64,000 nt of DNA, taken from positions 1 to 64,000 of the forward strand of contig NZ_WTVK01000002.1 in the NCBI RefSeq assembly GCF_012910805.1, given 5' to 3'. The stretch comes from Aromatoleum evansii (GTDB taxonomy: Bacteria; Pseudomonadota; Gammaproteobacteria; Burkholderiales; Rhodocyclaceae). Of the stretch, positions 2,310 to 15,887 are shown one piece after another. Positions within the stretch are counted from its first letter, which is position 1. Each line of letters starts with the position of its first letter. The notes beneath the pieces are model-generated. The model did not search any database. It was not told where the DNA came from and saw only the letters and a program-made list of their open reading frames with translations. Made by a program: the position numbers and the translations under genes.

Positions 2310-2565
2310 GGCGGACCGACGGAAATGGGTGACGGCATCGGTCACATGGAATGTGGCAAGGCGGCGCCAATTCTCGCGCGGCGCGGATGGGCTGAAGGCG
2401 GCCAGAAGGCGTCGGTCGTGAACGGCTGCTCACGCGCGGCGACACACCCGCGATATATATGCAAAATTTCTGGCGCGGTCACAAACTCTTATTTGCGATG
2501 ACTTCATGCGGTCAGGAAACGCCAGTTCCCGGCCCCGACGACCTACTGACAATCGGCGCGTGACA

Positions 2566-3687
2566 ATGGCTTTCGAATCCTTCAACCACGTTAGGCGCGA
2601 TTTACGACTTGACCCGAAAGACTGGGTCAACGCGGAGCATTCCAGATTCCTGAGACAAGGTGGGATTGAGCGAACGCCACAGAACATAGGCTACTGCCCT
2701 GAATGGCTACTCCGGCAGTCGTTTGTATGCCCCAACGGCCACACCTTCATCCCGGACTGGCTTGCCAAGCGTCCGCCACTGATGCCCTTCATGTCGGAAG
2801 GCAAGCTTTTCCGTCCGGGAACGGGAGAAGTGGTATGTCCGAGTTGCGCGACTCGCTTCGAGGTCCGACTGCCAAGCGTCCCCAAGGAAGATGACGTTTT
2901 ACTCTACGGCGATGAAGCCATGCGCGACATCGTCACCCCAGGCTGCGACAATCGCTACTGCGTGACCTACTCCCTGATTTCGAGGCCACGGGTCGCCGCC
3001 GAGGATCAGGAGTTGCTGGAAGCGTATCGAGCACTGAAGAGCGCGCGCCTAGGCGCGGATACCGTCGTCCACTGCAAGACACTCTTTCATGACGGCAGCA
3101 GGAGTGCGGTGAGACTGCCGACAGAGCAAGTGTCCGCGTTCCTGGGTGAGGTAGCGGATCTCCTCGCAAGCCGGGCCGGCAGGTTGGTCATCCTGAACTG
3201 CGCAGGGGTGGTCTTCAAGCCGCAGACGTTCAAAAAAAGAGAGCAAGCCGCCTGCAAAGCCCGGGTGTTCGGGCCGCTTGTCCAGTTCGCTATCGAGCAG
3301 ATGACCAAGCAGGGCCTCTGCCCGCATTTCTTCTTCGAGCGCACCAACGATGACGGCTGGGCCAAGGACTTGTTCGCGGGCGGCAGGCTCACGCTCATGT
3401 GGCCCTTCATCACTAACACGCTGCCAGTGAAGTCGCCCGAGTTCGTGCTGCCGATCTCCAGCGAGTATCTGGAGTTTGCGGACATCGTCAGCTTTGCCGT
3501 GGCGGACAACATTGCTCGGCGAGCCAACGAACGAGACGGAGACGGCGCACCTTTTCGCCCGAGGATCGACCTCGCTCGATTCGGCATCGTCCACTATCAG
3601 GGGTTTATGGAGAACGGCGACGCCATCTCGAAGAGCAGTGTCGGCTACCCGTGGCAGGACTTCTATCGCGGGACCGCCTGGGCTTGA
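2566..3687 (+). CDS. Zinc-ribbon protein with a DUF3800-like (RNase H-fold) region, orphan
   Basis: A 373-residue protein from the ATG at 2566; a GTG at 2560 or an ATG at 2506 are also possible because no ribosome site is clear. Near residue 55 there is CPNGH, with CPSCATR about 45 residues later: a four-ligand zinc-ribbon pattern. After it comes LLYGDEAMRD, which could match the D-E acidic strand of DUF3800, then VVHCKTLF, and near the end LEFADIVSFAV, resembling the LQxADLxAYA helix that closes DUF3800 domains. DUF3800 proteins are predicted nuclease-like proteins of unknown role, often on mobile or defence loci. By eye the gene is lower in GC and its codon use is less biased than its neighbours, and AT-rich sequence lies upstream (2450-2500), consistent with transfer. 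No partner gene is present. The family assignment is inference. Confidence 0.5.
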   Translation: MAFESFNHVRRDLRLDPKDWVNAEHSRFLRQGGIERTPQNIGYCPEWLLRQSFVCPNGHTFIPDWLAKRPPLMPFMSEGKLFRPGTGEVVCPSCATRFEVRLPSVPKEDDVLLYGDEAMRDIVTPGCDNRYCVTYSLISRPRVAAEDQELLEAYRALKSARLGADTVVHCKTLFHDGSRSAVRLPTEQVSAFLGEVADLLASRAGRLVILNCAGVVFKPQTFKKREQAACKARVFGPLVQFAIEQMTKQGLCPHFFFERTNDDGWAKDLFAGGRLTLMWPFITNTLPVKSPEFVLPISSEYLEFADIVSFAVADNIARRANERDGDGAPFRPRIDLARFGIVHYQGFMENGDAISKSSVGYPWQDFYRGTAWA

Positions 3688-3827: not shown

Positions 3828-4673
3828 TCAGGCGTTCAGCGTGATCACCCGCGAACATTGCTCCCCCAGCCCGGCGATACCCAGGCGCATCGTGTCTCCG
3901 TGGCGCAGGTAGCGCGGCGGGGAGCGAAGGAAGCCGCTGCCGGGCGGCGTGCCGGTGAGGAGCACGTCGCCGGGGTGCAGGGTCATGTAGCGGCTCGCGC
4001 AGGCGACGAGTTCGGCGCAGGTGAACAGCATGTCGGCGGTGTTTGCCACCTGCATCGTCTCGCCGTCGAGAGTTAGCCACAGGTCCAGCGCCTGCGGGTC
4101 TGGCAATTCGTCGCGGGTAACTAGCCAGGGACCGAGCGGGCAGAAGGTGTCGCAGCTCTTGCCCTTGTCCCAGGTGGGGCCGCGGTCGAACTGGAAACTC
4201 CTCTCGGAGACGTCGTTGGCGATGCAGTAGCCGGCAACGTGCTCGAGCGCACGTTCGGGTGACACCCGGCTCGCGCGACGGCCGATCACCAGCGCGAGTT
4301 CGACTTCCCAATCGCCGCGGGTGGCGCCGGGCGGCAGGCGCACGGCGTCGCGTGCGCCGCACAGCGAGGACGGCGCTTTCAGGAACAGGATGGGTTCGGA
4401 CGGCAGGGTGTGGCCGCCAGCGGCATGGGCGCGGTAGTTGAGGCCGGCGGCGACGATCTTGCCGACGCCGGCGACGGGCACGCCCAGGCGCGGGCGACCG
4501 GACACGGCGGGCAGCGCCCTTGGGTCAAGGCGGCGCAGCGCGGCGAGGCGCGCCGGGGCGAGCGCGGCGCCGTCGATGTCGGGGACGTGGGCGGAGAGGT
4601 CACGCAGCACGCCGTTGGCATCGATCAGGCCGGGCCGTTCGCGGCCGCGCGAGCCGTAGCGGACGAGTTTCAC
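3828..4673 (-). CDS. Fumarylacetoacetate hydrolase (FAH) family enzyme
   Basis: A 281-residue protein of the FAH/2-keto-4-pentenoate hydratase superfamily. The metal-binding acidic residues are in their usual places: E123 and E125 in GDWEVELALVIG, and D154 in IANDVSER. KIVAAGLNY (about 72-80) and LLTGTPPGSG near the end are also family hallmarks. Members use Mg2+ or Mn2+ to hydrolyse C-C bonds of acylpyruvates, hydrate 2-oxo-dienoates or decarboxylate oxaloacetate; the sequence does not tell which. It is the last gene of the long minus-strand cluster that begins at 14520, and its ATG lies 4 bases after the stop of the dehydrogenase at 4678. That spacing suggests the two act in sequence on the cluster's product or a breakdown product. 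Confidence 0.85.
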   Translation of the reverse strand: MKLVRYGSRGRERPGLIDANGVLRDLSAHVPDIDGAALAPARLAALRRLDPRALPAVSGRPRLGVPVAGVGKIVAAGLNYRAHAAGGHTLPSEPILFLKAPSSLCGARDAVRLPPGATRGDWEVELALVIGRRASRVSPERALEHVAGYCIANDVSERSFQFDRGPTWDKGKSCDTFCPLGPWLVTRDELPDPQALDLWLTLDGETMQVANTADMLFTCAELVACASRYMTLHPGDVLLTGTPPGSGFLRSPPRYLRHGDTMRLGIAGLGEQCSRVITLNA

Positions 4674-4677
4674 GGGC

Positions 4678-5532
4678 TCAGGCCGGCCAGGTGTGGCTGC
4701 CGCCGGCGTTCATCGCGAGGTTGCCGCCGTCGACGGGCAGGAGCACGCCATTGACGGCACGCGCGGCATCGGAGGCGAGGAAGACGGCCGGGCCGACGTA
4801 GTCCTCGGGATCGAGGAGGCGCCCCTGCGGCAGGCCGGCGAGGATACGCGGCAGGACGTGGTCGCGGAAGCGCGGGGTGTCGAGGTGGGCGCGCAGGCCC
4901 GGCGTGAGGGTCTGGGCGGGCAGGATGGCGTTCACGCGGATGCCGGCGCCGGCATATTCGACGGCGAGTTCGCGCGTCATCTGGTGCACGGCGGCCTTGG
5001 TGCAGCCGTAGGGCAGCGCGCCGCGCCCGAGGGCGCTTTCGCCGGCGTTGGAGCCGATGTTGATGATGCTGCCCTGCCCCGCCGGCAGCATGCGGCGCAG
5101 CGCGGCCTGGCAGCACAGGAAGTAGCCGGTGAGGTTCACGGCGAGCATGCGGTCCCAATCGGCGGCGGCGAGTTCGTGCGGACGCACGCGGGAGGGGAAG
5201 GCGAAAGGGACGTTGACGAGGATGTCGAGTCGGCCCAGCTCCCGGTCGATGCCGGCGAACACGGCCTCGACCTCGTCGGCGATCGCGATGTCGGCGAGGC
5301 GCGCAAACGGTGCGGGGCCGAAGTCGGCAAGTTCGCGCGCGGTCTGCGCGAGGCCGTCGGCGTCGATGTCGGCGATCGCCACGCGGGCGCCGGCACGCGC
5401 GAGGCCCAGTGCGAGGGCGTGGCCGATGCCGCCGTTGGCGCCGGCGCCGGTGACCAGCGCGATGCGGCCGTCGAGGTCAAACCGTGGCGAGGTGGGTGGC
5501 GAGTGGTGCGGCGGGTTTGTGGACGGATTCAT
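4678..5532 (-). CDS. Short-chain dehydrogenase/reductase (SDR)
   Basis: A classical SDR of about 284 residues. It has an N-terminal NAD(P)-binding TGAGANGGIG, an aspartate at the end of strand 2 (AIADIDAD) that usually indicates NAD(H) preference, active-site Ser in INIGSNAG and the YxxxK pair in YGCTK, and a C-terminal VDGG. The N-A-G of the usual NAG motif reads NVP (LVNVPFAFPS), an uncommon variant. I start at the ATG at 5532, which has GGAGA about eight bases upstream; this makes it overlap the end of the upstream phosphotransferase gene by 56 bases. No usable start exists after that gene's stop, because the Rossmann fold already begins near residue 18. It sits in the U32 cluster with an FAH enzyme 4 bases downstream. 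The substrate is unknown. Confidence 0.85.
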   Translation of the reverse strand: MNPSTNPPHHSPPTSPRFDLDGRIALVTGAGANGGIGHALALGLARAGARVAIADIDADGLAQTARELADFGPAPFARLADIAIADEVEAVFAGIDRELGRLDILVNVPFAFPSRVRPHELAAADWDRMLAVNLTGYFLCCQAALRRMLPAGQGSIINIGSNAGESALGRGALPYGCTKAAVHQMTRELAVEYAGAGIRVNAILPAQTLTPGLRAHLDTPRFRDHVLPRILAGLPQGRLLDPEDYVGPAVFLASDAARAVNGVLLPVDGGNLAMNAGGSHTWPA

Positions 5533-8104
5533 CGGCAGGGTCTCCGTGGGCGGATTCGAGCAGGGCGATGCGGCCGCTGGCGCCGTCGAGGACGACACGC
5601 TCGCCGTCGGTGATCAGGCGCGTCGCGTCGGGCAGCGCGACCGCGGGGATGCCGGCTTCGCGCGCCTGGCAGGCGCTGTGGGCGAGAAGCCCGCCGACTT
5701 CGACGACGAGCCCCGCGACGATGCGGAACAAGGGCGTGACGCCGAGGTTGGCGGCGCGCAGGACGAGGATCTCGTCGCCACGCCAGCCTTCGGTCGGCAC
5801 CGGCTCGCCGGGGGCAAAGACGCGCGCGACGCCGCAGACCTTGCCGGGCGACAGCGGCGTGCCGCTCCAGGCGCTTGCGCCTTCCCCAGCACCGGCGCGG
5901 GTCGTGGGCACGCCGATGGCATCGACGCGCGAGCCGAACACGACAGCCGGAACACAGTGGAGGCGTGCGGCGAGACGCGCCAGCGCGTGCTCGGCGGCAC
6001 GACGCTCGGCGCGCCGGCGCAAGGCCGAGGGGTCGCGCAGCGCGGCGGGCAGTTCGCGCGAGTGGAGATGGAAGATCAGTTCGTCGGGCCAGCCGAGGTG
6101 CGCGCCGAGGCGCAGCGCGGCACGGCGGACAAGGGCATGGACGACGGTGTAGTGGTGCTTGATCGTCTCGCGCAGCGGCAGGAAATGCTGCGCGAAGGCG
6201 AGCGCCTCGAAGAGGGCCGCGCGCGCGGCATCGTCGGCGCCGGCTGCAGCGAGCCGCCGGGCGAGTTCCGCCTCGGCCGTGCGACGCACCGCCTGCTGGT
6301 GCGCGAACTCCGCCGCCGGCCGGCGGCCGCTCGCGCGCAGGTTCGCGAGCAGCTCGTCGAGGCGGTCGGGATTCTCGGCCAGGCGCGCCTCGGCGAGTTC
6401 GAGTTCGTTGTCGGCACAGTGGCCGTAGGCGGCGAGGTAGTCCGCGCGGCTGCGGCGCCCCTCGGCGACCTCTTCCAGCCACAGCGCCTGGCGCGTGATC
6501 AGGCTACCGGACAGTCCGGACAACAGACGCGCGCACAGCGCTTCGCTGTCCGTTCCGAAACGGGCTTCGAGCGTGTGGCGGACTTCGGTCGCGAAATGAA
6601 AACCGAGCCGCGCGGCGATCACGAATTCGACGCAGGGCCCGGTGCGCAGGAAGCGCACGAGCTCCGACACGGCGGCAACGACACGGCGGGGATCGCCGGC
6701 CGTGACGGCGTCGGCGAGCGCGGCGGGAACGCCAAGGCGCGGCTCGACCTGCGTTTCGTAGCGGGCGCGGTAGTCGCGGGCCGCTGCGCGCATGCCCTGC
6801 CCGAAGCGCGCGCGCACCGCTGCGGCCGGCGCGTCGGCAGGCAGCCGACCGTACAGGCGCACTTCGGGATAGTTGGCGAGCGAGGGGTCGGCGGCGACAC
6901 GGGCGAGATAGTCGTCGACGGGGGGCTCCGCGCCGTCGCCGAAAGTGGCGGCGTCGACTTCGAGGTTGAAGCACAGCTGTCCGGCGACGAGCTCGTACAG
7001 GTGATCGACGCAGCGCGGATCGAAGCGATAGCCGAGGCGGCGGCGCCCGGTGACGATCGCGCCGCGACGGCCGGCGAAGATGTCGCGGAACAGGCCGAAA
7101 CTCATCCCCGTCGGTGTCGGCAGCAGTTCGCCGACGTTGCCGTTGCTGAGCACCAGTTCGCTGCCATGCAGCACGCCGCGCCGGCGCAGGTTGGTGAACT
7201 TGCGCCCGAGGCGCCGCCGCTCGCGGGCAAGATATTGTTCCAGCCCGCCACCGCCTGCCGTGCTCGCGGCGACGAGCGGGCGTGCCTGCAGCAGCCACAC
7301 GCCGCACAGGTCGACGGCGAATTCGACATCCTGCGGTCCGCCGAAGAAGGCCTCCGCGCGCAGCGCGAGCCGGGCGACTTCGCGTGCCTCGGCGGGTGTC
7401 AGGCAGGCGGCGCGGGCGCGCTGCGGGCGCACCGCATGCGTTCCATCAACAGCGAGCGCCTCGCGCTTGTGGCCGATGCGCTTCCTCAGCAGGCGGCCGG
7501 CGTGGGACAGGACGAAGCTGTCGCCGACATGGCTGCCCGCGGCGAGCGGTTCCGCCAGCCCCCATACGGCATCGACGTGCACCTCGCGGCGCTTCGGGTC
7601 GAGCGGCGCGCGCGTGTAGGCGATGCCGGCGGCGACGGCCGGCACGAGGCGCTGCACGAGCACCGCCAGCGCCGCATCGGCGTGACCAAGCCGGGCGCGG
7701 TACTCTATTGCGGCCGGTTCCGCCCATGACGCAATGCAGCGTTCCAGCGCGGCGAGCAGCGCCGCCTCGCCGTGCACGCCCAGTTCGGTGGCGTAGACGC
7801 CGGCGTAGCTCGCGCCCTCGCCATCCTCCTCGATCGCCGAGCTGCGCACCGCTACGCGCCCACCGAGGTCGCGATAGGCCGCCAGCAACGCGGCGCGCAC
7901 GTCCTCGCGGGCAGGCCCGCCCGCGCGCCAGGCCGCGACGGCCGCCGCGGTGACGCAGAAGCCGGCGCTCACGGGGAAGCCGGCTGCGAGCAGCAGGCCC
8001 TGGCGCAGCGCCTTGTTGCCAACCGCACGGGCGTCGGCCGGCGTGAGCGCGGCGAGGTCGCGGATCCAGGCGGACGCCGTCGGGGCGCCCTCCTCCTTGC
8101 TCAC
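5477..8104 (-). CDS. PEP-synthase/rifampin-phosphotransferase-like ATP-dependent dikinase
   Basis: An 875-residue protein starting at a GTG whose last two bases belong to the TGA of the U32 gene upstream (GTGA overlap). The N-terminal third is an ATP-grasp domain of the PEP synthase/PPDK type: GNKALRQGLLLAAGFPVSAG at residue 29 onward and AVRSSAIEEDGEGASYAG near residue 85. The C-terminus holds the swivelling phosphohistidine domain, with His809 in GGLLAHSACQAREAGIPAV. In PEP synthase, rifampin phosphotransferase and phenylphosphate synthase these parts transfer the beta-phosphate of ATP through that histidine to a substrate, releasing AMP and phosphate. The PEP/pyruvate TIM barrel of PpsA is not recognisable, so the substrate is probably a small hydroxylated molecule instead. 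Placement among U32 hydroxylase-like genes suggests it phosphorylates a pathway intermediate; this is inference. Confidence 0.8.
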   Translation of the reverse strand: MSKEEGAPTASAWIRDLAALTPADARAVGNKALRQGLLLAAGFPVSAGFCVTAAAVAAWRAGGPAREDVRAALLAAYRDLGGRVAVRSSAIEEDGEGASYAGVYATELGVHGEAALLAALERCIASWAEPAAIEYRARLGHADAALAVLVQRLVPAVAAGIAYTRAPLDPKRREVHVDAVWGLAEPLAAGSHVGDSFVLSHAGRLLRKRIGHKREALAVDGTHAVRPQRARAACLTPAEAREVARLALRAEAFFGGPQDVEFAVDLCGVWLLQARPLVAASTAGGGGLEQYLARERRRLGRKFTNLRRRGVLHGSELVLSNGNVGELLPTPTGMSFGLFRDIFAGRRGAIVTGRRRLGYRFDPRCVDHLYELVAGQLCFNLEVDAATFGDGAEPPVDDYLARVAADPSLANYPEVRLYGRLPADAPAAAVRARFGQGMRAAARDYRARYETQVEPRLGVPAALADAVTAGDPRRVVAAVSELVRFLRTGPCVEFVIAARLGFHFATEVRHTLEARFGTDSEALCARLLSGLSGSLITRQALWLEEVAEGRRSRADYLAAYGHCADNELELAEARLAENPDRLDELLANLRASGRRPAAEFAHQQAVRRTAEAELARRLAAAGADDAARAALFEALAFAQHFLPLRETIKHHYTVVHALVRRAALRLGAHLGWPDELIFHLHSRELPAALRDPSALRRRAERRAAEHALARLAARLHCVPAVVFGSRVDAIGVPTTRAGAGEGASAWSGTPLSPGKVCGVARVFAPGEPVPTEGWRGDEILVLRAANLGVTPLFRIVAGLVVEVGGLLAHSACQAREAGIPAVALPDATRLITDGERVVLDGASGRIALLESAHGDPADESVHKPAAPLATHLATV

Positions 8105-9081
8105 GCCGCAACTCCGGCATGGAGCGCGCGGCCCGCCCGCTCCGCGCCGCGGATGCGGGAATCGTCGCGGTTGTCGCGCTCCCCGCTCCAGCGGTCCTTG
8201 AGTTCCAGCCATTCCGGCGCGAAGCCTTCGACGCGCTCGCCACGCAGCGCCGCGTCGAGCACGCGCCGGTAGAAGCCGACGATATCCGCGACGAGCGGCG
8301 CGGAGCGCTCGCGACCGGGGATCTTGAAGCGCTCGACGCCCATCGCGACGTATTCCGGCACTTCCCACAGCAGCAGCTCGGGGCTGCTCTTCAGGCGCGG
8401 CGAATCGGGATGGCGGCGCTCCCCGGCGGTGAGCGACCACTCGCCGCGGCAGATGCGGTAGCAGCTCCCGCCACGCGCCGCGGAGCCGAGGTAGAGATCC
8501 TTGTCGTCGTCGCCGCGCAGGTGCTTCACGTGGAAGTAGCTGCTCGAATAGCAGCGCCCGGGGCAGATGCGGCCGCGATGCGGGTTCTGGAACAGGAAGG
8601 CTTCGAGCTTCATCGGGCTCGCGGCGCGGATCTGCGCCGCCTCGTCCACACCCCAGCGGTAGGGCAGCACGACGTAGTCGGCCCCCAGCTCATCGTAGAA
8701 GCGCACGTCCTCGACGTTGAACACGCCGGCGGTGACGCTGACGTGGATGTCGAGCGCGGGATGCGCGCGGCGCACCAGCGGGATCAGGCCGGGGTCGCAG
8801 ACCATCACACCGCTGACGCCGATCTTCGCGAAGCTCGCGACGCGGTCGAGGAACAGGCCGACCTCGTCGGGCGCCGGCATCACATTGATCGCGACGCGCA
8901 CGTCCTTGCCATCCCGCGCGGCCTCGGCGACCAGTTCGGCGATCGCACCGTCGTCGAGCTCGTCGGTGGCGGGGCGGCGGCTCCAGCCGCGCGGGCCGAC
9001 ATAGACCGAATCGGCGCCGCGCGCGAGCGACGCGTAGGCCATTTCGAGGCTGCCACCGGGGGCCATCAGGATCGTCATCAT
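8101..9081 (-). CDS. U32 family protein, UbiU/RlhA-like, paralogue 3
   Basis: A 326-residue protein of the so-called U32 peptidase family. It opens with MAPGGSLEMAYASLARGADS, the family's barrel start, and carries four cysteines in two pairs: C173 and C177 (CPGRC) and C207 and C211 (CYRIC). In UbiU, RlhA and TrhP, cysteines in this region hold a 4Fe-4S cluster needed for oxygen-independent hydroxylation; no protease catalytic residues are evident. It resembles the products at 10166 and 12099 throughout (YVGPRGWSRRP, YVVLPYRWG, ERFKIPGRERS), so the three are paralogues in one operon. Either ATG of the tandem at 9081/9078 could be used; the second is better spaced from GAGG. Its stop overlaps the phosphotransferase start, implying coupled expression. 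Confidence 0.85.
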   Translation of the reverse strand: MMTILMAPGGSLEMAYASLARGADSVYVGPRGWSRRPATDELDDGAIAELVAEAARDGKDVRVAINVMPAPDEVGLFLDRVASFAKIGVSGVMVCDPGLIPLVRRAHPALDIHVSVTAGVFNVEDVRFYDELGADYVVLPYRWGVDEAAQIRAASPMKLEAFLFQNPHRGRICPGRCYSSSYFHVKHLRGDDDKDLYLGSAARGGSCYRICRGEWSLTAGERRHPDSPRLKSSPELLLWEVPEYVAMGVERFKIPGRERSAPLVADIVGFYRRVLDAALRGERVEGFAPEWLELKDRWSGERDNRDDSRIRGAERAGRALHAGVAA

Positions 9082-9086
9082 TCACC

Positions 9087-10016
9087 TCACAGAAGGAGGC
9101 CGGCGGCGAGGCAGCCGGCCGGCAGTGCATGTCGGGGAGCGCCGGGCGGCGCCATCAGGTCGGCGAGCTCCTGCAGCCGCGCGGCCATCTCCGGCGCCCA
9201 CGCGAGGCCGACGCGCGCGAGCCACTTGCGGCGCAGCGCTGCACCGGCCCAGCTGCCCACGGGCACGCCGGAAACGCGCGACCACAGGCCGGGATCCGCG
9301 CGCAGGCGGGCCGCCGCGGCGCTCACCGAGCGTGCGAAGCCCTGCAGCAGGGCGGGCGCCGAGCGCGGCAAGTCCTCGTGACACACGAAAAAACTCGTCG
9401 GCACCTGCGGCCGCGGAACGGGAAAGGTCGCGAGCAGCCCGGCCAGGTCGCAGACCTCCCGGAAGGCTCCGCCCGCGACGAGTCCGGGCACCTGGTGCCA
9501 GTACAGCAGCGCCGCATCGAGCCCGCCGCCGCACAGGGCGTCGTGCAGGGCGCTCTTCGAGCCGGCAGCGATGCAATGCGACACCTCCGCCGGATCGAAG
9601 CCGTGGCGCAGCCGGCACGCGGCGCGCAGCAACAGCCAGTTCTTGTCCTGCGCATGGACGAGGCCGATGCGCTTGCCCGGCAGGTCCGCGAGGCTGCGCA
9701 GCGCGCCACCGCGCGGGGCGACGAGACCGCCGAAGATCGCGCCGTACGGGGCGGCCGCGACCAGCGGCAGGCCGGCGGCGCGATGGCGCGCGAGCGACAG
9801 CCAGTCGGTGTCGATGAGCTCGACCTCGCCGTCGATCAGCCGCGCCTCGGTCGCGTGGCGTTCGCCGCGTATGCGGTCGTCGCCCAGTTGCAGCGCGAGG
9901 CGATAGCCGTTGGCCTCGTCGAGGCCGCAGGCGACGATCGCGCGCATCAGCCACGCGCCGCTGCCGGTCGCCTCGAAGGCCGCGCGCAGGGTGGGCAGGG
10001 TGCTAACAGCGAACAT
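9087..10016 (-). CDS. Periplasmic-binding-fold (NMT1/THI5- or PhnD-like) protein without a signal peptide
   Basis: About 309 residues from the ATG at 10016. The layout is that of a type II solute-binding protein: a strand followed by AFEATGSGAWLMRAIVACGL, a domain crossover near SLADLPGKRIGLVHAQDKNW, then ALCGGGLDAALLYWHQVPG and a C-terminal helical part. The N-terminus has no hydrophobic leader or lipobox, so it should be cytoplasmic. Cytoplasmic proteins of this fold can be enzymes, as in MqnA and MqnD of menaquinone synthesis or eukaryotic THI5, and no ABC permease or ATPase is nearby. It lies 5 bases upstream of a U32 gene and downstream of another, separated from the latter by palindromic repeat B1. 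An enzymatic role in the cluster's pathway is inference. Confidence 0.6.
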   Translation of the reverse strand: MFAVSTLPTLRAAFEATGSGAWLMRAIVACGLDEANGYRLALQLGDDRIRGERHATEARLIDGEVELIDTDWLSLARHRAAGLPLVAAAPYGAIFGGLVAPRGGALRSLADLPGKRIGLVHAQDKNWLLLRAACRLRHGFDPAEVSHCIAAGSKSALHDALCGGGLDAALLYWHQVPGLVAGGAFREVCDLAGLLATFPVPRPQVPTSFFVCHEDLPRSAPALLQGFARSVSAAAARLRADPGLWSRVSGVPVGSWAGAALRRKWLARVGLAWAPEMAARLQELADLMAPPGAPRHALPAGCLAAGLLL

Positions 10017-10045
10017 CCGACACCCCGCCGAGAATACCGCGCACC

Positions 10046-10143
10046 GTAGGGCGGGAGGAGCGCAGCGCATCCCGCCAATCCGATCGCCGGAATCCTTCCG
10101 ATCGCCGCGTGGCGGGATACGCCTGCGGCTCCTCCCGCCCTAC
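10046..10143. repeat. Palindromic intergenic repeat, family B, copy 1 (full)
   Basis: A roughly 98-base inverted repeat. The outer arms are GTAGGGCGGGAGGAGC... and ...GCTCCTCCCGCCCTAC, with inner arms ending in CCCGCC and GGCGGG. The same sequence recurs in full at 27738-27835 and as half units at 30550-30580 and 46609-46639. This copy lies inside the U32 operon, between the genes at 10166 and 9087, where its RNA hairpin could reduce read-through or shield the upstream transcript. Confidence 0.85.
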
Positions 10144-10165
10144 GTGGTCGGCCGCGAATGCCGGC

Positions 10166-11125
10166 TCAGGCCACATAGCTCGCCGCCCGATCCATCAGGG
10201 TATCGACACGCTTCGCCTTTTCGCGCACCCAGCGCCCGCGCAGTTCGGCGAGCTCGGCGGCGTGGTGGCCGAGATCGGTCGCGCCGGCGGCGACCTCGTC
10301 GATCGCCCGACGGTAGAAGCGCACGAGATCGCGGATCATGCCGACCGGCCGCTCGCGCCCGGAGAGCTTGAAGCAGCTGACGCCGGCCGCGACGAAGGCC
10401 GGCAGCTGGGCGAGCATCAGGCGCGCGTCGCGGCGCAGCTTGATCTCGACCGGGTCCGCGCCCACCGCGCCGAATTCCCAGTTGGCCTGGCACACGCGAT
10501 AGCACTCCTTGGCGCCGCGGTTCGCGCTGCCGTGGAAGTCGCGGCTGCCCTCGACCTCCTTCCAGTCGCGAAAGCGCAGGTAGCTGCTCATGATGCATTT
10601 GCCGGGGCACAGCTTGCCGGTCTGCACCGTCTCGAACAGGAAGGTCTCCAGCCCGATGTCGCTCGCGCGGCGCACGGATTCGATCTCGGCGACGTCCCAG
10701 CGGTAGGGGAGGATGATCACGTCGGCGCCGGCGTCGCGGTAGAAGGCCGCATCGGCAAGGTTGCTGATGCCGCTGCCGATGCTCACGTGCAGCACCGTGT
10801 CCGGGATCTCGCGGCGCAGCGCACACATCAGGCCCACGTCGGTGACGATGAAGCCGGAAGCGCCGTCGGCCGCGTAGCGCAGCGCCTTGTCGACGAAGCG
10901 TCCGAAGTCGTACGGCGTCGGGAAGGTGTTGAGCACCACCCGCAGCTCCGCGCCGCGGCTGCGGGCGTAGGTGGCGGCCTCGCGGATCGCGTCGTCGCTC
11001 ATCTCGGATTCGTAGGGCCGGCGCGAGAAACCGAGCGGGCCGACGTAGATGATGTCGGCGCCCTGGTCGACCGCCGCTTGCGCCATCTCGAGCGAACCGG
11101 CCGGGGCGAGCAGCCTGGCGATCAT
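10166..11125 (-). CDS. U32 family protein, UbiU/RlhA-like, paralogue 2
   Basis: A 319-residue U32 protein. I start at the ATG at 11125 because it forms an ATGA overlap with the stop of the upstream U32 gene and begins the family's LLAPAGSLEMAQAAVDQGA motif; the frame is open further upstream but only as a shadow of that neighbour. Cysteines C173 and C177 (CPGKC) and C208 and C212 (CYRVC) are the probable 4Fe-4S ligands, spaced as in its two paralogues here. FKLSGRERP near residue 260 parallels the paralogues' C-terminal motif. Characterised relatives insert hydroxyl groups without O2 into ubiquinone precursors, 23S rRNA or tRNA. The substrate here is unknown. Coupling to the UbiV-like gene upstream mirrors the UbiU-UbiV heterodimer. 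Confidence 0.87.
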   Translation of the reverse strand: MIARLLAPAGSLEMAQAAVDQGADIIYVGPLGFSRRPYESEMSDDAIREAATYARSRGAELRVVLNTFPTPYDFGRFVDKALRYAADGASGFIVTDVGLMCALRREIPDTVLHVSIGSGISNLADAAFYRDAGADVIILPYRWDVAEIESVRRASDIGLETFLFETVQTGKLCPGKCIMSSYLRFRDWKEVEGSRDFHGSANRGAKECYRVCQANWEFGAVGADPVEIKLRRDARLMLAQLPAFVAAGVSCFKLSGRERPVGMIRDLVRFYRRAIDEVAAGATDLGHHAAELAELRGRWVREKAKRVDTLMDRAASYVA

Positions 11126-12069
11126 CTGTCGCGTCCGATGTAGCGCTGGCCCGCGCCTTCGAAGTAATAGCCGTTGCACAGGCCTTCGCGCGCGAGGCCG
11201 GCGAGCGTATCCAGCGCCGGCGCGAAATCCCCCGCGGCCTCGCCGGCGAAGGCACGCGCCAGCGCGTCGCGATAGATGTGCCCGACGGCCGCCGCATAGC
11301 CCGGCGCCTCGCCCTTGTTATGCACGTAGAAGTGCTTCAAGCCCATGCCAGCAAGCCGCTCGCCATGCTCGACCATGCACAGGTCCTTGCCCGACAGCGT
11401 CATGCGCCCGGTGTCCTTGAGCGACCAGTCGGCGCGGCTGCCGTCGTCGCGGCCGCGCTTGAGCCAGTGCTCCTGCGTGCATTGGTAGGAACAGCTGCCC
11501 TCGCCGCAGCCGCCCTCGGCACCCTCCTCGCTGTGCTCGAGGATGAAGCAGGTCTCCGAGATCACCAGCGGGATCTTGCCGTGCACCGGCACCAGCACCT
11601 CGATGTCGGCGTGCTCGGCGATGTAGCGTACCTCGTCGAGCGACAGTTCCGGGTTGGGATACACCCGCGTCACGCCGTGGTCCTTGAGCACCTTCGCGGT
11701 CTCGTGCGTGTACAGGTTGCCGAACACCCCAAGGTGGATCGGCGCCGTGCAGCCGCGCTCGCGCAGCATGCGCAGCACGCCGAGGTTATGCACCTCCAGC
11801 GCGTCGAAGGGCAGCTGGAGTGCGGTGTCGATGACGTCGCCGACCCAGTCGAGATCGTCGTTGCCGGGCACTGCATAGAGACGCAGGTAGGCCTTCTGGC
11901 CGTTCGCATGGACGTGCTGCAACCCGGCTTCGAGCAGCTCCGCGTGCGAGCTGAAGTTGTTCGGATACTCGGGGCAGGAGAAATCGCCGAGGTAGATCGC
12001 GTCGTAGGCCGAGAAATCGCCCTCGCGCAGTTCCTTCAGGTTGCCGACGTCGGTGGATAGTTCGAACAT
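11122..12069 (-). CDS. U32 family protein of the UbiV type
   Basis: A 315-residue U32-fold protein distinct from its three neighbours. Its cysteines are C32 (FSCPEYPN), C174 (ETCFILEH), C188, C193 and C197 (CSYQC). E. coli UbiV holds its 4Fe-4S cluster with C39, C180, C193 and C197, so the early lone cysteine plus late group identifies this as the UbiV-like partner, while the genes at 12099, 10166 and 8101 are UbiU-like. It has VHNLGVLRML and HLGVFGNLYTHETAKVL, typical of the family barrel. UbiV works only as a complex with UbiU, and the next gene begins inside this gene's stop codon, so one or more of the UbiU-like paralogues is the likely partner. An extra cysteine (C107 or C188) could be accessory. 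Confidence 0.83.
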   Translation of the reverse strand: MFELSTDVGNLKELREGDFSAYDAIYLGDFSCPEYPNNFSSHAELLEAGLQHVHANGQKAYLRLYAVPGNDDLDWVGDVIDTALQLPFDALEVHNLGVLRMLRERGCTAPIHLGVFGNLYTHETAKVLKDHGVTRVYPNPELSLDEVRYIAEHADIEVLVPVHGKIPLVISETCFILEHSEEGAEGGCGEGSCSYQCTQEHWLKRGRDDGSRADWSLKDTGRMTLSGKDLCMVEHGERLAGMGLKHFYVHNKGEAPGYAAAVGHIYRDALARAFAGEAAGDFAPALDTLAGLAREGLCNGYYFEGAGQRYIGRDR

Positions 12070-12098
12070 GTGTGGTCTCCTCGCAGGGGGCTATTGGC

Positions 12099-13073
12099 TT
12101 AAGCGGCGGCGACGCGCCGGGATTCGTCGATCGCCTGGCGCAGCAGGCGGTTGTCGCGCTTGGCGCGCTCGGTCATCCAGCGCCCGCGCAGGATCTCGAG
12201 CTCGGACGCGAATACGGAAAGATCCGGGCGGTCCGATTCGAGGATCGTGTCGACCGCGCGCCGGTACACGCGCACGATGTCGCGCACCAGCACCGTCGAA
12301 CGGTCGCGCCCGGGCACCTTCAGGCAATCGACACCGGCGGCGAGGTAGTCCGGCAGCTCCTCCAGCCACAGCGCGGGGTTGGTCTTGATCGTCATCGGCA
12401 TGCGGTAATCGATGTCGTCGACGTTGAAGTTCCACTCCGTCTGGCACACCCGCAGGCAGTCGCCGCCGCGCGAGGCCGAGCCGAAGAAGTGGTCCTTGCC
12501 CTCGGTGTCGAGCCAGCGGCGGAAGCTGAAATAGCTGCTCATGTTGCATTTCCCCGGACAGATCTTGCCGCCCGAGGGGGTCTTGAACAGGAAGACCTCG
12601 ATGCCGACCTTGCCCGCGCCCTTGATCTGGCGGATCTCCTCCACCGACAGGCGATACGGCAGCACGACGTAGTCCGCGCCGAGTTCGCGCAGGAAGCGCA
12701 CGTCCTCGTAGTTGGTGATGCCGCAACCGACGCTGGTATGCACGTTCACGTGCGGCAGGCGCTCCTTCACCAGCCGCATCGCGCCGAGGTCGCTGATCAT
12801 GAAGCCCTGCGCGCCCCAGCCCGCATAGCGCTCGACGCGCTCGACGAACATCGGCAGCTCGGTCGAGCTCGGCAGCGTGTTCACGACCACACGCACCTCC
12901 TTGCCGCGCGCGAGCGCGTAGTCGATCGTGTGGCGGATCTCGTCGTCGTTGAGCTCGTCCTGCGCACCGCGCCGGCTCCAGCCGACCACGCCGACATACA
13001 CCGCGTCCGCGCCCTCGTCGAGCACCGTCTTCGCCATCTCCAGCGTGCCGCCGGGGGCCATCATCATCACCAT
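12099..13073 (-). CDS. U32 family protein, UbiU/RlhA-like, paralogue 1
   Basis: A 324-residue protein. The ribosome site decides the start: AAGGAG (13087-13082) is only two bases from the GTG at 13079 but eight from the ATG at 13073, so I take the latter. The barrel opens with MMMAPGGTLEMAKTVLDEGA, and the Fe-S cysteines are C172 and C176 (CPGKC) and C206 and C210 (CLRVC). KVPGRDRSTVLVRD near residue 260 matches the other paralogues. It begins only a few bases after the aminotransferase fusion gene and is followed after 29 bases by the UbiV-like gene. Family knowledge points to oxygen-independent hydroxylation, probably drawing on a metabolite donor such as prephenate; the acceptor is not known. 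Confidence 0.87.
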   Translation of the reverse strand: MVMMMAPGGTLEMAKTVLDEGADAVYVGVVGWSRRGAQDELNDDEIRHTIDYALARGKEVRVVVNTLPSSTELPMFVERVERYAGWGAQGFMISDLGAMRLVKERLPHVNVHTSVGCGITNYEDVRFLRELGADYVVLPYRLSVEEIRQIKGAGKVGIEVFLFKTPSGGKICPGKCNMSSYFSFRRWLDTEGKDHFFGSASRGGDCLRVCQTEWNFNVDDIDYRMPMTIKTNPALWLEELPDYLAAGVDCLKVPGRDRSTVLVRDIVRVYRRAVDTILESDRPDLSVFASELEILRGRWMTERAKRDNRLLRQAIDESRRVAAA

Positions 13074-13086
13074 CTTCACGTCTCCT

Positions 13087-14520
13087 TCAGGCCGGGATCG
13101 CTGCCCGGCATTCGTGGTCTTCGCGCAGCAACTCGCCCAGCGCGGCGAGGAAACGCGCGTTCTCGGCAGGCAGGCCGACGCTCACGCGGATGTGGTCCGG
13201 CAGGCCGTAGCGGGCCATGCACTTCACCGCGACGCCGCGTTGCGCCAGGCGGGCGAGCGCCTCGCGCGGCGCGCGCAGCAATACGAAGTTCGCCGCCGAA
13301 GGCACGAACTCGACACCCAGGCGCCTGAGTCCCGCCATCAGCACCGCCCGCCCGCGCGCATTGGCGGCGACGCTGGCACGGCGGTGCGCGTCGTCCGCCA
13401 GCGCCGCGAGCGCCGCGGCCTGCGCCAGCGACCCAACGTGGTACTGCGGACACAGTGCGGCCAGCCGCCGCACCAGCGCCTCGGGCGCGAAGCCGTAGCC
13501 GACGCGCAGGCCCGCGAGCCCCTCGACCTTTGACAACGAGCGCAGCGCCAGCACCGGTGCGCCGCGCCGCACGTCCGCCGCCGCATCGATCAGATCATGC
13601 CCCTCGGCGTAGTCACGGTAGGCCTCGTCGAGCAGCAGCACGGCCCCGTCGGGCAAGGCATCACGCAGGTGCGCCCAGTCGGCGGGCGCCATCAGCGTTC
13701 CAGTCGGGTTGTGCGGCGATGCGACGATCACGAGGCGGGTCGCGGGCGTCAGGCGCGCGAGGTATTCCGCGACCGCGTAGCAGCTTCCCGCGAGCGGGAC
13801 CGTGACGACACGCGCACCGGCGCGAGCGGCGGCCGAGCGGTAGGCGGGAAAGGCCGGATCGGGGATCAGCACCTCGCCGCCGGCACCGGCGAAGGCGCGC
13901 AGCGCGAGGTCGATCAGGTCGCACGCGCCGTTGCCGATGACGATCTGCGCGGCCGAAAGTCCCAGCCGGCGGGCCAGCGCGTCGCGCAATACGCCGCTGT
14001 CGGCCGCCGGATAGCGATGCAGGCCCGCGCTCGCACGGAGGATCGCGGCGCGCGCCGCGGGCGAGGGTCCGGCAGGATTCTCGTTGCCGGAGAGATCCAC
14101 GCCGGGCAGGTCCGCGCCGGCGTAATGCGCACGGATCGACGCGACCAGCGCAGGATGGGGTTCGGCCTGCGGCCGCGCTGCGCGCACCCTCGCGAAGGAC
14201 TCGTCGAGCGGCAGGCCGAGGTATTCGTGCAGGAAACAGGCGGCCAGCGCCGGCGAGCGCGAGATACCCTGCTCGCAGTGCATCAGCACCCGGTGCCCTG
14301 CGGCGATACGGCCAGCGAGGAAGGCCGCGGCCTCGCGGATCGTCGCGGCGGGCAGCGCGACGCGGTCGGCCACTGCCAGCCCCAGCTGCAGCGCCACCTC
14401 CGCCGGGCGCGCCAGCGGCGCCAGCGACAGCAGCGTGTCGATGCCTGCCGTCCGCAGCGCGGCGCCGTCGGCGGCATCGGCGCGGCTTCCCACGGCCAGC
14501 TGCGGCATCACGAAATCCAT
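13087..14520 (-). CDS. Fusion of a dual-specificity phosphatase domain and a HisC/CobD-like aminotransferase
   Basis: A 477-residue two-domain protein. Residues 1-135 form a dual-specificity phosphatase with the complete catalytic loop HCEQGISRS (Cys82, Arg88) and the N-terminal MPQLAVGSRADA strand seen in such enzymes. Residues 140-470 form a fold-type I PLP enzyme of the histidinol-phosphate aminotransferase group: DLSGNENPAGPS at the start, SPHNPTG at 269, LLLDEAYRDY at 296, and the PLP lysine K331 in SLSKVEGLAGLRVGYG. HisC and CobD act on phosphorylated substrates, so the phosphatase half may remove that phosphate. Conversely, the dikinase downstream could install one. GGAGGGG lies about six bases before the ATG. 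This is the first gene of the U32 operon and is too unlike a plain HisC to be a histidine gene. Confidence 0.85.
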   Translation of the reverse strand: MDFVMPQLAVGSRADAADGAALRTAGIDTLLSLAPLARPAEVALQLGLAVADRVALPAATIREAAAFLAGRIAAGHRVLMHCEQGISRSPALAACFLHEYLGLPLDESFARVRAARPQAEPHPALVASIRAHYAGADLPGVDLSGNENPAGPSPAARAAILRASAGLHRYPAADSGVLRDALARRLGLSAAQIVIGNGACDLIDLALRAFAGAGGEVLIPDPAFPAYRSAAARAGARVVTVPLAGSCYAVAEYLARLTPATRLVIVASPHNPTGTLMAPADWAHLRDALPDGAVLLLDEAYRDYAEGHDLIDAAADVRRGAPVLALRSLSKVEGLAGLRVGYGFAPEALVRRLAALCPQYHVGSLAQAAALAALADDAHRRASVAANARGRAVLMAGLRRLGVEFVPSAANFVLLRAPREALARLAQRGVAVKCMARYGLPDHIRVSVGLPAENARFLAALGELLREDHECRAAIPA

Positions 14521-14551
14521 TCCATTCCCCTCCGGGCCACGCCTGCGAACA

Positions 14552-14568
14552 TGTCGACATCATCGACA
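14552..14568. promoter_or_regulatory. Candidate operator ahead of the U32 operon
   Basis: A perfect dyad TGTCGA-N5-TCGACA lies 32 bases upstream of the aminotransferase-fusion start. Farther upstream on the same flank GATCATGA occurs twice (14594-14601 and 14608-14615) in an AT-richer stretch that could hold the promoter. The 173-base gap to the MFS gene also contains a short hairpin (14669-14685). No regulator gene lies beside it, so the binding protein is unknown. The dyad is seen directly; its function is inference. Confidence 0.35.
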
Positions 14569-14693
14569 CGTGCGCCCCGGCGCGACACGGCAGGATCATG
14601 AAGCGGAGATCATGATTTTCTGCAATTCCATCTCGTCATTATGGTTATGTACCTGCAGCCGGCCCGGCGTGCTGTCGCGCAGCACACGACGCC

Positions 14694-15887
14694 TCAGCGC
14701 ATGCAGCCGCCTGCGCGCCGGCACCATGCGACGAAGCCGACGCCGCCCAGCGTCAGGAAGCCCGCCATGCCCGCAGCCAGCGTCAGCGGCGAATGCCACA
14801 GCATGGGCGCGAAGATGCCGGCGATGCTCGAATTGATCCCGACCTGCAGGAAGCTCTGGCAGCTCGACGCCAGGCCGCGATGCGAGGGAAACAGCTCCAG
14901 CGCCAGCAGCGTCATGCTCGGCATCGACAGCGCCATGCCGAAGGTGTACAGCATGATGGGCAGCACCGACTGCGGCAGGCCGGGCGGCAGCAAGGTCGCG
15001 ACCAGCAGGTTGGCGAGCGCCGCCGTCGCCATGATGGCCACGCCGACCACCACGGTGCGGCGCACCTGCCAGCGTCCGGCCACCCGCTCCGACAGCGCGG
15101 AACCGGCGCTCATGCCGATGACCGAGGGGACGAACAACCAGCCGAACTGCTGGGCGCTGAGGCCCAGGTGCTGCATCAGGAAGGCCGGCGCCGACAGCAC
15201 GTAGAGGAAGAAGCCGTTGAAGTTGAACGCCGCCGCCGCGCTGAGCAGCACGAAGGCACCGCTTCCCAGCACCCGCCGATAGGCGCGGGCGAGCAGCACC
15301 GGATGCAGCGGATGGCGGTGCTCGGCGAGCAGCGTCTCGGGCAGGAAACGCCAGGTGAGGAAGGCCAGCAGCGCGCCGAAGAAGGCGAGGAAGAAGAAGA
15401 TCGCGCGCCAGCCTGCCACGGCCAGCAGCAAGCCGCCGATGATGGGCGCGATCGCCGGGGCGACGCCGAAGATCAGCATCACGCGCGACATGAGGCGCTG
15501 CGCGTGCGCGCCGTCGAACAGGTCGCGGATCACCGCGCGCCCCACCACCATGCCCGCGCCGCCCACCATGCCCTGCAGCGCGCGGCCCACCCACAGCCAT
15601 TCGATCGACGGCGCCAGCGCACACACCAGCGAGGCCAGCGCGAACAGCACGCTGCCGGCGATGAGCACGTGGCGGCGGCCGAAATGGTCGGCGAGCGCAC
15701 CATGCCACAGCACCATGAAGGCAAAAGTCGCCATGTAGGCGGTCAGCGTCTGCTGGATCTGCAGCTGCGATGCGCCGAGCTCTGCGCCCATCGCGCCGAA
15801 GGCCGGCAGGTAGGTGTCGATGGAAAACGGCCCGATGGCGGCGAGCGCGGCAAGGACAAACGCTAGCCAGGGCGAAGTGGCGGGCAT
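14694..15887 (-). CDS. MFS drug-resistance-type exporter (Bcr/CflA-like)
   Basis: A 397-residue inner-membrane protein with about twelve hydrophobic segments. GALADHFGRRHVLI (about 63-76) is the MFS motif A between helices 2 and 3. GVAPAIAPIIGG in helix 5 is the antiporter motif C, which marks a proton-driven exporter; DTYLPAF in helix 1 is typical of the Bcr/CflA group (bicyclomycin, chloramphenicol, sulfonamide efflux). It runs in the same direction as the U32 operon and ends 173 bases before it, so it might export the cluster's product, but a separate role in general drug efflux is equally possible. Its own start lies 74 bases from the comM stop upstream. Confidence 0.83.
   Translation of the reverse strand: MPATSPWLAFVLAALAAIGPFSIDTYLPAFGAMGAELGASQLQIQQTLTAYMATFAFMVLWHGALADHFGRRHVLIAGSVLFALASLVCALAPSIEWLWVGRALQGMVGGAGMVVGRAVIRDLFDGAHAQRLMSRVMLIFGVAPAIAPIIGGLLLAVAGWRAIFFFLAFFGALLAFLTWRFLPETLLAEHRHPLHPVLLARAYRRVLGSGAFVLLSAAAAFNFNGFFLYVLSAPAFLMQHLGLSAQQFGWLFVPSVIGMSAGSALSERVAGRWQVRRTVVVGVAIMATAALANLLVATLLPPGLPQSVLPIMLYTFGMALSMPSMTLLALELFPSHRGLASSCQSFLQVGINSSIAGIFAPMLWHSPLTLAAGMAGFLTLGGVGFVAWCRRAGGCMR

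Follow-up and report, generated by a model that had tools for sequence, protein, structure and literature searches.

A conserved cassette with four U32 genes in Aromatoleum evansii may encode an oxygen-independent route to pyrroloquinoline quinone or a related cofactor

What might nine adjoining genes, four of which encode proteins of the U32 fold, serve to make? The genes in question occupy positions 3828-14520, on the minus strand, of the window, by which we mean the whole 64,000-nucleotide stretch of Aromatoleum evansii DNA that was analysed; it covers the beginning of a 176-kb contig in a genome of 5.94 Mb. An earlier note on this DNA had described the cluster as nine partly overlapping genes for a dedicated pathway, apart from known ubiquinone or histidine synthesis, that would make or modify a small molecule without O2, and had named no product. 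All nine genes are present at that place, the overlaps are real (the stop codon of U32c and the ATG of U32b, for example, share 11122-11125) and the gaps are short. We suggest that this cassette encodes an O2-independent route to pyrroloquinoline quinone (PQQ), or to a PQQ-like ortho-quinone cofactor, for periplasmic PQQ dehydrogenases in anoxia, a reading that we consider on balance, and only just, probable. We infer the product, the substrates and the O2-independence of the pathway; for the U32 proteins themselves, independence of O2 would follow by analogy with characterised U32 enzymes. The genes are:

13087..14520, minus strand: phosphatase (DSPc, HCEQGISRS) fused to a HisC-type pyridoxal-phosphate (PLP) aminotransferase; Pfam DSPc E 6e-12, Aminotran_1_2 E 2e-54
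12099..13079, minus strand: U32d, UbiU-like, CX3C-X29-CX3C; PF01136 E 4e-35, own clade, cysteine columns
11122..12069, minus strand: U32c, UbiV-like, C32/C174/C193/C197; PF01136, own clade (100/99) beside UbiV
10166..11125, minus strand: U32b, UbiU-like; PF01136, own clade (100/100)
9087..10016, minus strand: leaderless PqqT-like protein (PQQ-binding-protein fold); start uncertain, 10016 or 10070; NMT1 E 7e-7
8101..9081, minus strand: U32a, UbiU-like; PF01136, own clade (100/100)
5477..8104, minus strand: dikinase-like ligase/phosphotransferase; PPDK_N and PEP-utilizers (mobile His domain)
4678..5532, minus strand: short-chain dehydrogenase/reductase (SDR) oxidoreductase; Pfam SDR, close homologue in the pqq operons of Motiliproteus and a Neptunomonas metagenome-assembled genome (MAG)
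3828..4673, minus strand: FAH-family enzyme; PF01557 (FAA_hydrolase) E 6e-72

The Pfam U32 domain was found in four window proteins (E 4e-35 to 7e-27). Two starts were corrected, that of U32b to the ATG at 11125 and that of the binding-fold protein to near 10016. The dikinase gene probably starts at the GTG at 8104, judging from a 4-base overlap in a related locus (L045) and from a GTGA reading; family and homologue searches with this protein were run with the start at 8140 instead. Outside the window, genes were predicted with a home-made codon model.

The first pointer to PQQ is the binding-fold protein, which by sequence and predicted fold is a homologue of PqqT of Methylobacterium. An hmmsearch against the PDB matched PqqT (9b1u) at E 4.7e-30 with a five-sequence profile and at E 3.3e-56 with a 25-sequence profile, the next match being TauA at 1.5e-6; the larger profile includes two proteins from outside the cassette slot, namely the exported solute-binding protein of L064 and the second NMT1 protein of L069. 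With an AlphaFold model of the protein (mean predicted local distance difference test, pLDDT, 92.1), the first three Foldseek ranks were taken by three PqqT entries (E 3e-22 to 1e-21, TM 0.80-0.85). Cassette proteins are 24-36% identical to PqqT across the aligned part, and the exported protein of L064, which is encoded beside a PQQ dehydrogenase, is 39% identical. The motifs DKNW and DAALLYW are common to the cassette proteins and PqqT, and the residue engineered in entry 9ooz (Y161W) is the Y of LLYW. The two thus agree in fold, in the DKNW and LLYW motifs and in the profile match (E 3e-56), whereas PqqT is an exported solute-binding protein with an ATP-binding cassette (ABC) transporter and the cassette protein has no leader peptide visible in an alignment read by eye, nor is there an ABC transporter in the conserved cassette core. 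Readings of the protein as MqnA-like, prephenate-dehydratase-like or 4,5-dihydroxyphthalate-decarboxylase-like were rejected, PqqT being far closer (the decarboxylase came 45th in Foldseek).

The second is co-occurrence. A genome scan with an alignment of U32a, U32b and U32d gave 33 loci, 29 with cassette pieces (L044-L072), many of them cut by contig ends, and four with a minimal U32 system (L073-L076). We compared 29 cassette genomes, eight from the genus of the window and 21 reached through loci; 16 of the 21 are MAGs by title and several have a cassette cut by a contig end, and what was identified in four of the eight (G490, G491, G492, G496) is the U32 quartet alone. Every one of the 29 encodes a PQQ alcohol dehydrogenase (TIGR03075, E<=1e-50), 28 above the curated cut-off, as do 3/5 cassette-free congeners and none of the four minimal-U32 genomes, in which pqqB, pqqC and pqqE gave no match either. 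Four of the 29, all MAGs, have the dehydrogenase yet none of these three genes, which also favours the proposal. In a sample of the family the enzyme is found in 82 of 199 genomes, including all five with the cassette, so that 77 of the 194 without a cassette have it. As the 29 genomes are not independent, no p-value is attached to this co-occurrence.

The third is linkage. A Sideroxydans MAG carries, on a 78,807-base contig that also bears the cassette locus L052, genes on one strand for a PqqA-like peptide, pqqB, pqqC, pqqD, pqqE, a major facilitator superfamily (MFS) protein, a histidine kinase, a response regulator and the cassette FAH, after which come, on the opposite strand, a gene for 129 amino acids and then the cassette. 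Motiliproteus sediminis has the arrangement pqqB-pqqC-pqqD-pqqE-peptidase-SDR, with 14 bases between peptidase and SDR; this SDR is 69% identical to that of the window, and the cassette, which lies about 16 kb from it on that contig, has none. The order pqqE-peptidase-SDR recurs on a 5.3-kb contig of a Neptunomonas MAG. Beside the cassette of a Deltaproteobacteria MAG (L064; no pqqB, pqqC or pqqE) a cluster starting about 1 kb away holds a PQQ alcohol dehydrogenase (TIGR03075, 741 bits), the exported PqqT-like protein and ABC genes, its other members being read by eye, and in the L059 MAG such a dehydrogenase lies about 11 kb from the aminotransferase. The other pqq loci fetched held no further cassette-type gene, the SDR match beside the pqq genes of G886 being only 38%. 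PqqT homology, linkage to pqq and PQQ dehydrogenase genes, and co-occurrence together place the cassette in PQQ metabolism, and its hydroxylase-like, aminotransferase, kinase and phosphatase content makes synthesis likelier than salvage.

The four U32 proteins, three UbiU-like (a, b and d) and one UbiV-like (c) as had been proposed, carry the cysteine sets ascribed to them: C174-x3-C178...C208-x3-C212 is invariant in U32a, U32b and U32d (five genomes, 15 sequences), and C32/C174/C193/C197 of U32c is invariant in 20 UbiV-like proteins. The latter cysteines match what we take to be the UbiV positions of a four-cysteine Fe-S ligand set. The spacing in U32a, U32b and U32d is CX3C-X29/30-CX3C and not the CX6CX15CX3C of characterised U32 oxidases (PMC11574389); in the homologues of L074-L076 the first half of the motif reads CX6C. 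In a careful tree (49 rows; UFBoot/SH-aLRT), with which an 86-row quick tree agrees, a, b and d group with the minimal-system homologues on one branch (100/100), within which the a and b clades are each supported at 100/100 and d at 100/100, or at 94/92 if L069 is included. UbiU, TrhP and RlhA each form a clade of their own (100/100), and the U32c clade (100/99) is sister to UbiV (98/96), not inside it. The deep joins are unsure, since the program warns of long branches meeting. Two kinds of sequence, the third, divergent U32 of L073-L075 and the fifth U32 type of the genome, are in the quick tree but not in the careful one. That fifth, very divergent type (L106; G000 C274:15213-15773) is also present in relatives, and in the quick tree it groups with none of UbiU, UbiV, TrhP and RlhA.

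Family scores agree with these separate clades. U32a, U32b and U32d reach 112-130 bits against UbiU (NF047963, cut-off 440), U32c reaches 57 bits against UbiV (NF047965, cut-off 275), and all four lie at 95-123 bits against TrhP (NF011996, cut-off 534). The genome's own UbiU and TrhP score above the curated cut-offs and lie away from the cassette; it presumably also holds UbiV and RlhA, labels given from the place beside UbiU and from protein size. The four cassette U32 genes are therefore extra.

The neighbourhood is conserved well beyond the genus. All nine genes are collinear in G044, G167 and G192 (67-97% identity), near-identical clusters were found in Aromatoleum species, and in another genus (G163) the order is kept as far as the dikinase gene, where the contig ends, at 54-83% identity. 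Hosts of L044-L072 include Aromatoleum/Azoarcus, Rhodoblastus, Thiorhodococcus, Thiodictyon, Neptunomonas and Motiliproteus, together with Ferrovum/Sideroxydans MAGs, Proteobacteria-labelled MAGs and one MAG each of Gammaproteobacteria, Deltaproteobacteria and Methylomirabilota; the cassette thus spans three proteobacterial classes (Alpha-, Beta- and Gammaproteobacteria) and reaches the MAGs of ‘Deltaproteobacteria’ and Methylomirabilota. The visible order is always U32d-U32c-U32b-PqqT-like-U32a-dikinase, except in L069, which starts at U32c. Collinearity in relatives and recurrence in distant taxa exceed what chance would give, and flanks that vary from genus to genus are as expected for a transferable cassette. 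It is also rare, being found in 5 of the 199 genomes of the family sample; U32c at E<=1e-30 was found in no genome but its own among 398 of the phylum (five candidates scored), nor was the dikinase at E<=1e-60 among 300 of the order (three candidates scored per genome). With the U32 genes in clades apart from UbiU/UbiV, RlhA and TrhP, and with a neighbourhood kept across genera, classes and phyla, the dedicated pathway envisaged in the earlier note is well supported.

The remaining enzymes resemble known families at a distance. The dikinase-like protein scores 223 of 883 bits against ‘phosphoenolpyruvate synthase’ PRK06241.2-2, 149 bits against phosphoenolpyruvate synthase TIGR01418 (cut-off 739.75), 211 bits against rifamycin phosphotransferase (NF041857, cut-off 999) and 205 of 1300 bits against PigC, so that by these comparisons it is far below each named family that it resembles. 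It shares with RPH, PigC and RedH an ATP-binding domain and a mobile phosphohistidine domain, and differs from them in these low scores. The aminotransferase part gives 258.9 bits against hisC TIGR01141 (cut-off 276.55); both the phosphoenolpyruvate-synthase and the histidine-type readings were ruled out on family scores. Its region is visible in 23/29 cassette loci. The phosphatase of the fusion has an intact HCxxGxSR signature, and its counterparts, typed by scanning one member of each type, vary: a DSPc domain fused to the aminotransferase in 12 loci (L044-L054, L058), a separate DSPc gene in five (L062-L065, L067), a Y_phosphatase3-type gene in L056 and L061, a PTP-SAK/DSPc-type gene of divergent sequence in L068, and in L069 a histidine phosphatase. 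In Motiliproteus, Thiorhodococcus and others the phosphatase and the aminotransferase are encoded separately, and a search for HCxxGxxR gave no match in L059 or L060. That phosphatase types replace one another suggests that dephosphorylation is needed. The best solved relative of the FAH protein is L-2,4-diketo-3-deoxyrhamnonate hydrolase (8gsr, E 5e-88). Homologues of the SDR (E<=1e-60) occur in 11 of 15 cassette genomes and in none of three cassette-free congeners tested.

The interest of such a route lies in a gap in PQQ supply. PqqC needs oxygen, which is said to pose a problem for anoxic methanol oxidation (PMC12423496 and PMC11102522). As PQQ synthesis is thus held to need O2, PQQ alcohol dehydrogenases are said to work in anoxia only with carried-over or imported cofactor (PMC11102522). 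If our proposal is true, a dedicated O2-independent route would explain how such enzymes could serve facultative anaerobes in the absence of air, and would extend U32 hydroxylation past ubiquinone and RNA; the cassette is a defined gene set open to testing in Aromatoleum, Rhodoblastus, Motiliproteus and Thiorhodococcus.

PQQ carries two ring oxygens beyond those that tyrosine brings. The three UbiU-like proteins would each pair with the single UbiV-like protein, and the pairs would add hydroxyls to an aromatic ring without O2, with prephenate as the probable oxygen donor, taking over the O2-dependent work of PqqB and PqqC. More speculatively, the aminotransferase could set an amino group, the dikinase could phosphorylate an intermediate ahead of a coupling step, the phosphatase could remove the phosphate, the SDR and FAH enzymes might make redox and C-C adjustments, and the leaderless PqqT-like protein might hold, in the cytoplasm, either the finished product or an intermediate close to it. 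In its fullest form the proposal is a complete, peptide-independent and O2-independent PQQ pathway from small molecules, sharing no gene with pqqABCDE and made up of three U32 hydroxylases with a shared UbiV-like partner, the aminotransferase, dikinase and phosphatase, and a cytoplasmic PqqT-like carrier; this we advance tentatively, as less likely than not. The hydroxyl of anaerobic ubiquinone synthesis comes from prephenate, as reported in PMC11574389, and O2-dependent and O2-independent routes to ubiquinone coexist (PMC11707229).

Several observations weigh against the proposal. pqqC is present in 25/29 cassette genomes and pqqE in 23/29 (once as a fragment below cut-off), so most of them need no cassette for PQQ in air; pqqB was found in 10 of 14 tested. 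The genomes with PQQ dehydrogenases but no pqqB, pqqC or pqqE (G874, G879, G882 and G887, with L056, L061, L064 and L069) are all MAGs by title, which may be incomplete, and since pqq genes are usually clustered, one assembly gap would remove them all; the five non-MAG genomes (those of L053, L054, L058, L065 and L067) and the eight genus genomes keep pqqC and pqqE. PQQ dehydrogenases without pqq genes are, moreover, common through import, according to PMC12124388. G044 and G496, the single-contig genomes of the genus, have the cassette a long way from their pqq and PQQ dehydrogenase genes, and in G871, G872 and G878 a dehydrogenase match on the cassette contig lies at least 100 kb away. SDR and FAH are absent from some cassettes, an SDR homologue at E<=1e-60 being missing from four of the 15 genomes tested. 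In the sequence preceding the first gene of each locus, a search with an FNR consensus found no FNR-like site at up to two mismatches in L044-L049 or the window; it gave an exact match before the operon in L068, which speaks for the proposal, two one-mismatch sites in L066 and two-mismatch sites in L059, L064 and L067, and as the sites are patchy we claim no general anaerobic promoter.

Another point against it is that the cassette genomes G867, G875 and G886 also carry a second pqqDE in a neighbourhood like pqqAED-puuD-serC-pyrD, a cluster proposed for anaerobic PQQ synthesis (PMC12423496), and may therefore hold two anaerobic PQQ candidates. In G867 and G875 the SerC family is above cut-off, the PyrD-like protein is below it and the puuD place is taken by a small protein without an NCBIfam match; G886 was read by eye. 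These second clusters (L269, L270 and L271, in the genomes of L048, L057 and L068) run pqqD-pqqE, small protein, SerC-family and PyrD-like genes; L269 and L270 lie near nar-like genes (by eye) and L271 beside a UbiU/UbiV-like pair. The cassette shares with the proposed cluster the idea of O2-independent PQQ and an aminotransferase, a PLP enzyme being the one family that they have in common; the cluster has no U32, dikinase, phosphatase or PqqT-like protein.

Of the other explanations, the one that survives best is that the cassette replaces only the O2-dependent late steps (PqqB, PqqC) and needs PqqA, PqqD and PqqE, or that it modifies pqq-made PQQ into a derivative. The wide presence of pqqC and pqqE speaks for this, as do the two genomes with an SDR in their pqq operon and the one with an FAH gene co-directional with pqqABCDE; yet four cassette genomes, though all MAGs, have the dehydrogenases and none of pqqB, pqqC and pqqE, and a trio of aminotransferase, dikinase and phosphatase is unexpected for late steps alone, so that we regard this as unlikely, while giving it real weight. 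The cassette differs from pqqABCDE(F), with which it shares its predicted product, linkage or co-occurrence and the SDR in two operons, in having no known O2-using enzyme, and inside cassettes there was no family match for pqqC or pqqE (29 genomes) or for pqqB (14 tested). A PqqA peptide, sought with a sequence pattern, was found in none of 16 cassette loci nor the window, and the same pattern recovers one in only 3/7 loci that hold pqq genes (L254, L256 and L267, not L213, L259, L262 or L272).

Less probable again, and in our estimate quite improbable, is a specialised metabolite unrelated to PQQ, in which case the binding-fold protein would be a distant PqqT relative with another ligand and the linkages incidental. 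PQQ dehydrogenases are indeed common in the family, identity to PqqT is low, and the dikinase scores alike for rifamycin phosphotransferase and prodigiosin ligases; against this stand co-occurrence in all 29 cassette genomes and linkages in several lineages, among them two genera whose pqq operon contains a cassette-type SDR. That the cassette serves salvage, degradation or sensing of PQQ seems to us very unlikely: PqqT is an uptake protein and its ABC genes lie near the cassette in L064, but the cassette protein is leaderless, the conserved core has no transporter and the hydroxylase-like, kinase and aminotransferase genes suit synthesis better. A second ubiquinone/rhodoquinone or RNA-hydroxylation system is least likely of all in spite of the resemblance to UbiU/UbiV folds, given scores far under the UbiU, UbiV and TrhP cut-offs, separate clades, and UbiU and TrhP above cut-off in 10/10 genus members searched (six with and four without the cassette).

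A close parallel to the proposed route is the UbiU/UbiV/UbiT pathway, which it resembles in the logic of U32 pairs, in Fe-S cysteine sets and in being an O2-independent alternative beside an O2-dependent route in facultative bacteria. It departs from that pathway in having three UbiU-like paralogues per UbiV-like protein, CX3C-X29/30-CX3C in place of CX6CX15CX3C, other enzymes and another predicted product, with no UbiT seen in the cassette. Among open-licence papers we recognised no description of this gene set.

Some further observations concern the minimal systems and the surroundings of the cassette. L073-L076, in MAGs labelled bacterium, Thermodesulfobacteriota, Aquificota and Campylobacterales, have only a U32c/U32d-like pair, to which L073-L075 add a third divergent U32. 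L074 and L075 also hold genes for an acyl-CoA ligase, a YbgC-like thioesterase, a histone-deacetylase-like protein and a NIL-ferredoxin; the ligase and thioesterase genes of L073-L075 were dropped as a substrate clue, because these genomes lack PQQ dehydrogenase, pqqB, pqqC and pqqE and hold part of the system only. A LysR gene is present in seven cassette loci, and L051, L052, L056, L061 and L071 have a histidine kinase gene, which in L051, L052 and L071 adjoins one for a response regulator (families by clustering; L060 and L051 scanned).

A 393-amino-acid plus-strand open reading frame without an NCBIfam match (2506-3687) adjoins the cassette in the window. Immediately upstream of the cassette lies an MFS gene (14694-15887), of a different type from the EmrB-type MFS gene found between pqqE and a histidine kinase gene in L254 (8444-10030); either could possibly encode a cofactor exporter. 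Between the window's MFS gene and the fusion gene, the stretch 14521-14693 is conserved in Aromatoleum and contains repeated TCATGATC words and a shared GCAGAAAATCATGA core, a possible regulator site.

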